A stretch of 50,109 bases of DNA from positions 1-50,109 of the IMG/VR virus record IMGVR_UViG_3300025383_000034; one strand, written 5' to 3'. Below, piece by piece: positions 1 to 8,750 of this stretch (position 1 is its first letter; every line of letters starts with the position of its first letter). The DNA comes from a virus. Under the pieces are notes generated by a model. That model made no database searches and was not told where the DNA came from. It worked only from the letters and a program-made list of their open reading frames with translations. The position numbers and the translations under genes are program-made.

Positions 1-102
1 GTAGGAATTGGTTGTGTTACTAAAGGTATTACCGGAGTTTGATGGTTGACCAATCGGATCAACAGGACGTTCCGCGATATGGAAATTGCCGTCTAGCGCC
101 AC
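1..102 (-). CDS. Tail protein, N-terminal fragment (allele A), cut by window edge
   Basis: Only the first 34 codons are present; the rest lies left of the window. The start is GTG at 102, with an AAGGAG ribosome site five bases upstream. The sequence is a diverged allele of the start of the 759-residue tail protein at 39853-42132: both begin ALDG, share HIAERP and DPIGQP, and then differ. It is preceded on the minus strand by a terminator, as its counterpart is. It is therefore the same locus from a second haplotype rather than a broken gene. Confidence 0.8.
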   Translation of the reverse strand, partial: MALDGNFHIAERPVDPIGQPSNSGNTFSNTTNSY

Positions 103-128
103 ACTTACTCCTTAAATAGTTTCCAATG

Positions 129-152
129 AAAAAGCCCCGCCGTAGCGGGGCT
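129..152 (-). terminator. Rho-independent terminator, allele A
   Basis: A perfect 8-base-pair stem (AGCCCCGC at 133-140, GCGGGGCT at 145-152) with a CGTA loop is followed on the minus strand by a run of five T. It lies between the alanine-rich gene and the tail-protein start, so it would end the structural transcript. The other haplotype has a different stem sequence at the same place (42149-42170). Confidence 0.85.
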
Positions 153-169
153 GGTAATGCTGGTACTGC

Positions 170-394
170 TTACGCTGTCAGTGCTGCCACTTCGTCAGCG
201 GTTAGCCCCAATGCGGTGAGCTTGGCGATAGCGGCTGCTTTCGCATCTGCCTTTGCCTTCTCTGCTGCATCAGCGACTGCCTTGTCAGCGGCGGCTTGTG
301 CGGCTGCTGCCTCGGCTGCTGCAATTTCTTCAGCGGTTTGTGGGCGAGTGGTTACTTCTTTTGTCTCGCAGTTAATGTCGACTACATCTGCCAT
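170..394 (-). CDS. Small alanine-rich coiled-coil protein (allele A)
   Basis: The 74-residue product starts MADV and contains a long run of Ala, Glu and Lys from about residue 24 to 55 that would form a helix or coiled coil. It ends in LTALGLTADEVAALTA. The start has an AAGGAG site that lies inside the end of the upstream HNH gene, so the two are translationally coupled. The allele at 42254-42478 differs at only a few residues, mostly near the N-terminus. Its position at the end of the fibre operon suggests a small virion or assembly protein; I do not recognise a named family. Confidence 0.75.
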   Translation of the reverse strand: MADVVDINCETKEVTTRPQTAEEIAAAEAAAAQAAADKAVADAAEKAKADAKAAAIAKLTALGLTADEVAALTA

Positions 395-5463: not shown

Positions 5464-5634
5464 TTACTTACCTTTAACTTTCTTGAGGTTTGGGTTTTTC
5501 TTCTTTGCTGCTGGACTTGCATTACGAGCGCCAGCTGCAAGAATTGCACCAGCGTTCTTCATAGGAATACCTTGCTTCTTAGAAATAGACTTTGCCGCTG
5601 CGGCAAAACCCATACCCTTTTTTGCTGCTGCCAT
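5464..5634 (-). CDS. Basic Ala/Lys-rich 56-residue protein
   Basis: Starting at ATG 5634 (TAATG overlap with the previous stop), the product begins MAAAKKGMGFAAAAKSISKK, includes AGAILAAGARNASPAAKKK and ends KKVKGK. Its histone- or protamine-like composition is consistent with binding DNA in the virion. Function unknown. Identical copy at 47443-47613. Confidence 0.7.
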   Translation of the reverse strand: MAAAKKGMGFAAAAKSISKKQGIPMKNAGAILAAGARNASPAAKKKNPNLKKVKGK

Positions 5635-6077
5635 TAGAGCGCACCAACTTCCTTCATAGTGTTTGCGAGTGGTTTATCTATCTTTGATGCGGCTGGCATA
5701 TACTCTGCGTTGTACGCCGTACCAAGCTTGTCACTAGCAGCCTTAGCTTCCTGGACTGCCTTCATGGTTGTGCCTGCTGGCTGAATACCTTGTGAGCGAG
5801 CATCCGCGTAGGCGTTCAGCTCTGCGTTCCACTTCTTGTTGCTCATGCTGTCAGCTCGGCCAGCATCGCCTGTGCTTAGCTCTAGTGTGCGGAGCTTGCA
5901 GCCAAAGCAGCCATCGATATAATCAGTATGGTTAAGATGATCCGATGGTGTTTCTTCAACCACTGGCGGAGTTGTGAAAACTTCGTCGCATCCAGTGCAA
6001 CCATATTCAACGGGAATAGAGTTGTAACTCTCATCCATTCCCCACTTGGTTACCTTGCTTACGTGTTGATGCGACAT
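5634..6077 (-). CDS. Zinc-ribbon protein with helical C-terminus (147 residues)
   Basis: The start at 6077 is chosen because GGAG lies just upstream; it gives [17 protein letters not shown]. Two Cys pairs about 35 residues apart (CTGC and CFGC) form a zinc-ribbon-like unit. The rest is helical (NAELNAYADARSQGIQPAGT). The start overlaps the end of the glycosyltransferase gene by 47 bases. Similar short zinc-ribbon proteins sit among virion genes of actinophages; the role is unclear. Identical copy at 47613-48056. Confidence 0.7.
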   Translation of the reverse strand: MSHQHVSKVTKWGMDESYNSIPVEYGCTGCDEVFTTPPVVEETPSDHLNHTDYIDGCFGCKLRTLELSTGDAGRADSMSNKKWNAELNAYADARSQGIQPAGTTMKAVQEAKAASDKLGTAYNAEYMPAASKIDKPLANTMKEVGAL

Positions 6078-7119
6078 GTAACTCCTGTTCCATAAAATGT
6101 ATATTGCGCAATATGCGCTCTTGCTCAGGACCATTGGCCTTGGCTGCCTCTTTGGCAAAGGTCAAAGCTTCGTGCTTATGACCTAAGTTGTAGGCACTTA
6201 CTCCCGCTAGGTCAAGAGCTTTCCAGTCCCAAACTGGAGCTTCATAGCAGTAGTGTGCAGAACGGGGAAGATCTATAATTGTCAAACATGCATCTAGGCA
6301 TTTCTGCCATTGCTGTTTGCGGTATGCGTCTATCGCCACACCATGCCAAGGTTCACCTTGGGTGGGCAATATCTCTACGCCTTTTTCAAACCATTGGGTA
6401 GCATCTTGACCCAACTGGTAAGCAGCTTCGCCCATCCAACGACAGGTTGCTGCACCTTCTACATCCCAACCATCTAGTTCAAGTCTGCGCTTGCCTGCGG
6501 CAAGTACATCTTCCCAACGGTTGTGGTAGTAATACTCTCTGGTCATGTATGTCCACATGCGAGCATCGTCAGGAAATTCCTTGACGGCCATCTCAAGCAG
6601 TGGCACATACTGTCCTCTGGACTTAGAGTTATCTGGCATGTGCGTGATAAGCGCATTGGTAATATCAACTTGCTTAGCTTCGCCTTGGCCATACCACAAC
6701 TGAATTTCGTGGCAAGGATATTTCCAATGCCAGCCATTGCGACCATGCAGTCTGTCACGGGCTGACTTAGAGCCTGTGTCAATAGTTATCCAGCCAAAGT
6801 CTGAGCCTTTGACCCAGCGCTTGCGTACCTTGTCAAAGAACTTTGGTTCAGGCACTTCGTCCAAATCTAGGACTAGGCACACATCCGCGTCTTTTGGTAC
6901 GAGCGATAGAGCCGCATTACGAGCCATATCGAAGCGCCAAGGATTAACGCTAATATCATAAACCGTAACACCGAGTTTGCGGAGCGCTTCTTGTGTGCCA
7001 TCTGTAGATCCTGTATCTGCTACGATTACATAGTCGGCACCAGCCGTAGCGGCTGCGTACCTTTCGACGTGCTTAATCTCATTAAGCGCTATGCTGTAGA
7101 CAGCTATCTTAATAGACAT
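6031..7119 (-). CDS. Glycosyltransferase family 2-like protein
   Basis: The N-terminal 110 residues have a GT-A fold signature: [17 protein letters not shown], then [16 protein letters not shown] near residue 31 and [10 protein letters not shown] near residue 82 (the DxD-type metal site). The C-terminal two thirds is helical and TPR-like ([32 protein letters not shown]). The total of 362 residues suits this two-part family. Such an enzyme would transfer a sugar from a nucleotide donor to a virion protein or host surface polymer. Its position next to the Ser/Thr-rich collagen-like fibre makes that protein a plausible substrate (inference). Identical copy at 48010-49098. Confidence 0.88.
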
Positions 7120-7133
7120 TCGCGTCTATTGTA

Positions 7134-8750
7134 TCACATAGCTCCGAAGATTAGTATGTCTGGGTACGCCGTGGCGTTTGTGCCTGCCGAGCCTGTTGCT
7201 CCCGTGCTTCCCGTAGAACCTGTCGCGCCTGTCGATCCAGTAGGCCCTGTAGCTCCAGCCGTGCCAGTGCTGCCAGTAGCACCTGTCGACCCTGTTGGTC
7301 CAGTAACGCCAGTCGCTCCTGTAGCTCCTGTCGCACCGTTGGTGCCTGCTGTGCCTGTTGCACCTGTGGAACCAGTTGGGCCAGTTGGGCCAGTAATGCT
7401 TGTTCCTGTGGCTCCAGTACTTCCCGTTGACCCTGTGGCACCCGTTGCTCCTGTCGGTCCAAGTTGCGTGTACATAATCTGTTCGACATGAAGGTTAACA
7501 CTTGGGGAAGCGGGACGAGTTGGAGATGAACCTGCTGATGCGGCAAGCAACTCCATATATGTATTTTGTGAGGACCAGTAGAACTGGATGTAGTCATTAG
7601 CGTTGACGGTAACCAAGTCTTCAATGTTGGCAAGCACTTGATTGTTAACGCCAGAGGTGGTAAAGATTGCGGTTGATTCAGTCACCGCTGTGCCGTTGAG
7701 GGCATACCAGACATTGACCTGATAGTTGCTACCGCCGCCTGTGGTAATGAATTGACCAAGCAAATTGACGGAATATGTACCAGCATAGGCAAAGGTAATC
7801 TGGCTGCCAGATACAATGCTTACTCCACTAGAGCCAGCATTAGTGTTAATGGTGATGAGGTTAGCGCTTGTAGCGCCAGCGTTGGTCTGAGTGGTAGTGT
7901 CGTAGAAGTTACCGTAATAGCCCAGCGCACCGCCTGCACCAGTGGCTCCTGTAGCGCCTGTGGCGCCCGTAGAGCCTGTTATAGACGTTCCAGTAGCACC
8001 AGTCGCACCTGTAGCTCCAGTACTTCCTGTAGGTCCAGTAGGACCTGTGCTGCCTGTACTACCAGTTGAGCCAGTTGCTCCTGTAGTTCCAGTAGCTCCT
8101 GTGTTTCCCGTGGCTCCAGTTGGTCCTGTGGAGCCTGTAGCGCCAGTAGAACCAGTTGAGCCTGTAGAGCCAGTTGGACCTGTTACACCTTGGCTGCCAG
8201 TAGAGCCTGTAGCTCCAGTTGAACCTGTAGCTCCAGTTTGTCCAGTTGCGCCAGTGCTTCCTGTAGCACCAGTTGCACCCGTTGAACCAGTAGGTCCTGC
8301 AACTCCTGTACTGCCAGTTGCCCCTGTGTTTCCAGTTGAACCAGTGGCACCAGTTACTCCAGTTGACCCTGTGGATCCAGTAGCCCCTGTCGGGCCAGTA
8401 ACACCTGTTGAGCCAGTAGAACCTGTGGGTCCTGTCGCTCCAGTGTTACCAGTGGATCCTGTTGCTCCAGTACTCCCTGTTGCACCAGTTGCGCCAGTCG
8501 CGCCACTTCCTGTCGCTCCTGTAGCTCCTGTATTACCCGTAGCTCCCGTCGGACCAGTAACGCCGACACTGCCAGTGGGGCCAGTATTGCCAGTAGGCCC
8601 AGTGTTACCGTTAGCACCTGTTGCTCCTTGAATACCTTGTGGGCCAATCACGCCCAGTTCAATAACTAATGGTTGAGTAGAACCAACGTTAAAGACGTTG
8701 GTTGTGACGGGGATAAGTACAGTCGATATGGAATTAGTTGTGACTGACAT
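7134..8750 (-). CDS. Collagen-like tail fibre protein (allele A, long form)
   Basis: The 538-residue protein has a non-repeat head (about 1-40) and a long Gly-x-y region of GATGATGST-type triplets (about 41-270). A globular beta-rich domain follows (about 271-400, [19 protein letters not shown] through [11 protein letters not shown], resembling C1q/TNF-like jelly rolls), then a second Gly-x-y region and a short tail ending DILIFGAM. Triple-helical fibres of this kind project from virions. The start overlaps the upstream stop by one base. The allele at 49113-50109 carries a far shorter first repeat region. Because the repeats are nearly identical in DNA, they can expand or contract by recombination or slippage. 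Confidence 0.9.

Follow-up and report, generated by a model that had tools for sequence, protein, structure and literature searches.

It is known that some viral contigs in IMG/VR are overlong, the assembler having passed the same genome more than once, and show a raised k-mer frequency (CheckV, PMC8116208). Direct terminal repeats (DTRs) of k-mer length are described in the same paper as assembly marks of a circular template. A related situation is depicted in Extended Data Fig. 2b of the COBRA paper (PMC10914622), where the sequences reached by extending a contig at its two ends are close relatives of one another. As for physical molecules, T4 DNA has terminal redundancy and circular permutation, and its heterozygotes are a classical finding (PMC3016281 and its references).

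The window, that is, the whole stretch of DNA analysed here, is a complete IMG/VR entry of 50,109 bases. Family searches found the terminase large subunit, portal, capsid, helicase, exonuclease, and endolysin genes of a tailed phage (features relevant to the locus are collected in Table 1). When the window is aligned with itself, the longest exact run lies at an offset of 41,979 and corresponds to the two passages of a block of 5,516 bases. An exact match of 5.5 kb cannot be due to chance. The initial annotation had described an exact repeat of 5,517 bases at 2067-7583; the repeat is confirmed, whereas its length is one base shorter, position 2067 being a C/T mismatch between the copies.

Table 1. 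Features of the 50,109-base window (the flanks of the first passage of the block are termed A, those of the second passage B)
Feature	Coordinates	Strand	Basis or remark
N-terminal start of second, diverged allele of the 759-aa gene	1..104	-	contig begins inside gene
HNH endonuclease gene, left-end allele	372..962	-	PF13392 (E 1.9e-8), phrog_20891; 51% aa identity to 42471-42980
Two short tandem paralogous genes, left-end alleles	975..1994	-	46%/49% aa identity to 42934-43449/43452-43970
Identical block, first passage	2068..7583	-	exact match to 44047-49562
Block genes: short fibre-like, tail-fibre-like, SU10-adaptor-like (4007-4897), glycosyltransferase (6031-7119), 3' part of collagen-like		-	
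Collagen-like tail fibre gene, complete allele joining the core	7134..8750	-	PF01391, phrog_6320 tail fiber
41,979-bp unit, closing end to end: core + B-left + block + A-right	7584..49562		k-mers; units of relatives
Terminase large subunit, core	22261..24171	-	phrog_38 (E 5.7e-64)
759-aa gene, core allele, function unknown	39853..42132	-	phrog_11667 (E 3.1e-138); 99% aa identity in L083
HNH endonuclease gene, right-end allele	42471..42980	-	PF13392 (E 2.4e-9)
Two short tandem paralogous genes, right-end alleles	42934..43970	-	comparison of the two copies
Identical block, second passage	44047..49562	-	exact match to 2068-7583
Collagen-like gene, variant allele	49563..50109	-	contig ends inside repeats

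Outside the block, the window remains collinear with itself at an offset of about 41,979 as far as both contig ends. The flanks were described earlier as diverged alleles of the same genes, and the comparison agrees with this. At the offset of 41,979, the copies of the left flank mismatch at 59-81 of every 100 ungapped positions, and the genes are homologous between the copies: the HNH gene over its last 140-odd residues and both short genes, at the identities given in Table 1. At the seam between this flank and the block (1993-2067), the copies show just three differences in 75 bp, including an exact 51-bp run. In the right flank, 7584-7987 shows 26 differences (6.4%) from the other copy; 20 of the differing codons are synonymous and four are non-synonymous. 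Past 7987, the collagen repeats differ in number and order between the copies. The two alleles of the collagen-like gene are 94% identical in amino acids, the one at 49563-50109 having fewer repeats. Sequencing error in the flanks is ruled out by the synonymous character of 20 of the 24 differing codons of this gene. An ordinary terminal redundancy, which would be identical to its ends, is ruled out as well, as it had been in the initial annotation, since as many as half of the residues are different between the ends.

The short tandem paralogous genes (975-2587 and 42934-44566) matched no PHROGs family; their products may be adhesin-like. They have conserved ends and variable middles: F.SIP.TYT occurs near the N-terminus, and most end in SSF.LYGI/V at the C-terminus. 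These ends look like seams for module exchange. The HNH genes adjoin the variable fibre-like genes in both alleles. Their C-termini are near-identical (DKIKYALEILELYAPHLLNKEN), and their fronts are diverged; the HNH endonuclease genes are a possible driver of allele exchange. It should also be mentioned that the core carries a gene for a proteasome/HslV-like peptidase (31843-32400; phrog_1040, E 7.9e-26; Pfam Proteasome just under the cut-off), which adjoins an N4/N6 DNA methylase gene (32397-33113).

The two passages of the block might be taken as two complete fibre cassettes in a single phage genome of at least 50 kb, whose host range is switched by recombination across the block. Both cassettes are present in the deposited record, and 5.5 kb of identity would allow such recombination. 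A cassette duplication, however, should leave distinct unique sequence flanking each copy. Instead, nothing unique flanks the repeat, which runs up to the contig end on either side, as is to be seen when an assembly path wraps around a circle.

The k-mer content of the window is in line with such wrapping. Its k-mer multiset equals that of a 41,979-bp circle (7584-49562) together with an 8,130-bp linear fragment (1-7583 joined to 49563-50109), and this equality holds at every k compared (55, 77, 99, 127, 200, and 1000). This means that reads shorter than the block cannot separate the circle plus fragment from the path written in the window, so that by k-mers a wrapped path and the circle plus fragment are indistinguishable. 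Because no short read or insert spans the identical block, the phase of the left and right alleles is not established either. The initial annotation had paired A-left with A-right and B-left with B-right; this pairing is not borne out, and it is B-left, the block, and A-right that close the circle.

The contigs of close relatives lead to the same circle. All close relatives are metagenome contigs, which by their IMG dataset numbers probably come from bog and other lakes. Window 3210-12317 is 100% identical to contig L003, and the complete collagen-like gene is contiguous with the block and the core in both L003 and L004. L083 is 97% identical over 34755-42430, which includes about the first 300 bases of B-left. 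L003 (block, A-right, and core) and L083 (core and B-left) together thus make up the circle.

Four relatives are closed. G002 has an exact DTR of 99 bp and a unit of 42,703, G005 an exact DTR of 127 bp and a unit of 41,313, and G021 an exact DTR of 127 bp and a unit of 41,352; G003 has a 126-bp end repeat and a unit of about 42,146. The offset of the repeat in the window, 41,979, therefore lies within the range of these units (41,313-42,703), as a wrap would have it. The relatives open at four sites, namely near the terminase gene, in the collagen gene, in the 759-aa gene, and within the 1607-aa gene region. The openings differ from one another, which means that the map is circular and the opening arbitrary. 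Their end repeats, 99 and 127 bases long, are k-mer marks as in the CheckV paper (PMC8116208). In each of the four, the full-length adaptor gene and the 759-aa gene are present once (in G003 the latter is cut by the contig ends). In other words, a single cassette is present in four of four closed relatives, which argues against two cassettes in the window. Among cultured-phage and reference records carrying the 759-aa gene, it is single in 31 of 31, and this argues in the same direction. By TerL and the 759-aa protein, the named relatives that come nearest have 33-48% amino acid identity and comprise Streptomyces phages of 45-46 kb as well as two unannotated Caudovirales records; megablast of window 1-12000 gave no match to cultured phages. 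One more contig, G004 (IMGVR_UViG_3300025410_000037; 41,939 bp), carries at its end (40530-41600) an adaptor gene 87% identical to that of the window and is otherwise dissimilar. It was left out as a size comparator because merely its end resembles the phage family of the window; either lateral exchange or a chimeric contig end would account for this gene.

The left end of the window is informative in another respect. The translation of 1-104 (VALDGNFHIAERPVDPIGQPSNSGNTF...), compared with that of the gene at 39853-42132 (VALDGFRHIAERPADPIGQPSTAGNTF...), is that of the N-terminal part of another 759-aa gene allele. This segment is 100% identical to L162 and 96% to L051, in which the gene continues into core genes. 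Past the point corresponding to the left end of the window, L162 carries the rest of the 759-aa gene, after which come the genes found at 35-40 kb of the window, with their order retained, at about 73% nucleotide identity. The "duplication" therefore does not end with the cassette but takes in core genes of a sister lineage as well. A wrap would be expected to run into the core in this way, whereas a cassette duplication would not; with two cassettes, the core would have to be duplicated too.

A second oversize contig was found in the same phage family. G001 (IMGVR_UViG_3300025390_000012) has 48,607 bp and is the sole other family contig above 43 kb among those met. Like the window, it has a cassette at either end, the two lying 42 kb from each other: two diverged adaptor copies, 92% and 75% identical to that of the window, lie 41,973 bases from each other, one near each end. 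Unlike the window, it has no long identical block, its cassettes being diverged throughout (about 73% nucleotide identity). In G015, which is 99.7-100% identical to G001, G001 41374-48607 is joined directly to G001 6188-27812. The right end of G001 therefore wraps to its own core, and the left-end cassette is an alternative allele. L006 carries this left-end cassette at 99%, and the 759-aa gene on that contig (L095 is the same contig) is 77% identical to that of the window, that of G001 itself being 61% identical. The collagen-like gene is a recurrent place of breaks and seams: the right end of the window (50109), the right end and the internal seam of G001, and the opening of G005 fall in it. 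Such places are window 7134-8750 and 50109, L138 6188, the end of L140, and the start of L150.

The resolution of G001 by G015 as one circle speaks further against the two-cassette genome, which appears extremely unlikely. The record is very probably a wrap-around metagenome contig of a phage whose genome maps as a circle, measures about 42 kb, and has a single tail-fibre cassette. The initial annotation had offered two alternatives. The first, in which two variants were read through in a circle of about 42 kb, is strongly supported by the closed single-cassette relatives, by G001 with G015, and by the continuation in L162; the second, two fibre cassettes with switching of host range, gained no support, and several tests speak against it. 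What the record shows is most likely variation among the strains of the water sample, rather than a phage with two sets of tail genes.

The contig probably arose as follows. The sample would have held at least two variants that shared the 5.5-kb block or were collapsed in it. On one side of the block, they would have had different HNH and short fibre-like gene alleles, and on the other side different alleles of the collagen-like gene. The shared 34-kb core would have been written once by the assembler, which then followed one cassette allele outward from its right end and a second one from its left end. The shared block would thereby have been passed twice, and the path would have ended in variant tips at both ends, the right tip in collagen repeats. 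We infer this path, including the two passes of an unresolvable block, and likewise which of the tips pair.

The origin of the left tip leaves room for two readings. L004, a close relative, differs from the window by 8% in the block, and the block is exact between the two passages. The variants therefore share it by recent exchange, or one of the junctions is chimeric. In the latter case, a left tip (1 to about 1990) from a sister lineage resembling L162 and L051 would have been fused to the block of the major strain at 1993-2067, and the left tip joined to this block would exist in no phage. Identity to L162 is 95% over window 1-407, and identity to L052 is 98% over 1858-2029, whereas the block regions of these two contigs are only 82% and 76% identical to that of the window; the near-identity at the seam also favours fusion. 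On the other hand, tail genes shuffle naturally, and the mismatch at 2067 followed by exact identity is expected from natural exchange as well. A chimeric join thus seems possible but somewhat doubtful. The identity of the block beside neighbours diverged by 50% fits both a recent exchange of tail genes in nature and a chimeric join at 1993-2067. A chimeric join is a sub-case of the wrap-around explanation and excludes a two-cassette genome just as well; neither natural exchange nor a chimeric seam yields such a genome.

Independent support for the tips (1-2066 and 49563-50109) is limited to the 1-407 and 1858-2029 matches. By exact search, the right-end collagen allele (49563-50109) was absent from all other viral contigs, and the seam was found in no other contig. 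The searches gave no independent contig joining this collagen allele to the core or carrying the left-end alleles of the short genes. With the short genes of both ends as protein queries, distant relatives at 34-49% and one partial match at 74% were obtained.

A real molecule might also show two alleles at its ends if it were a terminal-redundancy heterozygote, packaged by the headful mechanism from a concatemer in which two co-infecting phages had recombined. The circular maps opened at four places would fit circular permutation, and the terminally redundant, circularly permuted DNA of T4 provides a precedent (PMC3016281). This model needs, however, a redundancy of 8.1 kb (19%) and single-molecule sequencing, and the 99/127-bp end repeats of the relatives point to short-read k-mer assembly. 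It is regarded as exceedingly improbable. For the 50-kb sequence to be a real molecule in either form, a two-cassette genome or a heterozygote with 8 kb of allelic redundancy, carrying two host-recognition sets for recombination, is likewise very improbable.

The biology behind the wrap-around contig is ordinary: co-occurring phages with a common core have different adhesin-type genes. Its significance lies in data hygiene and is modest. Such contigs, having no detectable end repeat, are classed as linear, and the genome length is overstated by a fifth; they are also open to misreading as gene duplication or host-range switching. The window and G001 together indicate that the artefact recurs within one phage family.

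Wrap-around contigs are a known artefact class, and the partial, allelic form found here is of the same kind. As in the overlong contigs described with CheckV (PMC8116208), the window is longer than its genome through repeated passage. Those cases repeat the genome 2.0-6.8 times, whereas the window comprises 1.19 units and has diverged ends; no terminal repeat was therefore detected, and the record is listed as linear in IMG/VR. As in the case in the COBRA figure (PMC10914622), the two ends run into related variants of one region. There the tool refuses the join, whereas in the window the assembler itself wrote both variants. The window further resembles heterozygotes of the T4 type in having two alleles at two redundant ends; those, however, are physical molecules, and the window is known as an assembled sequence.
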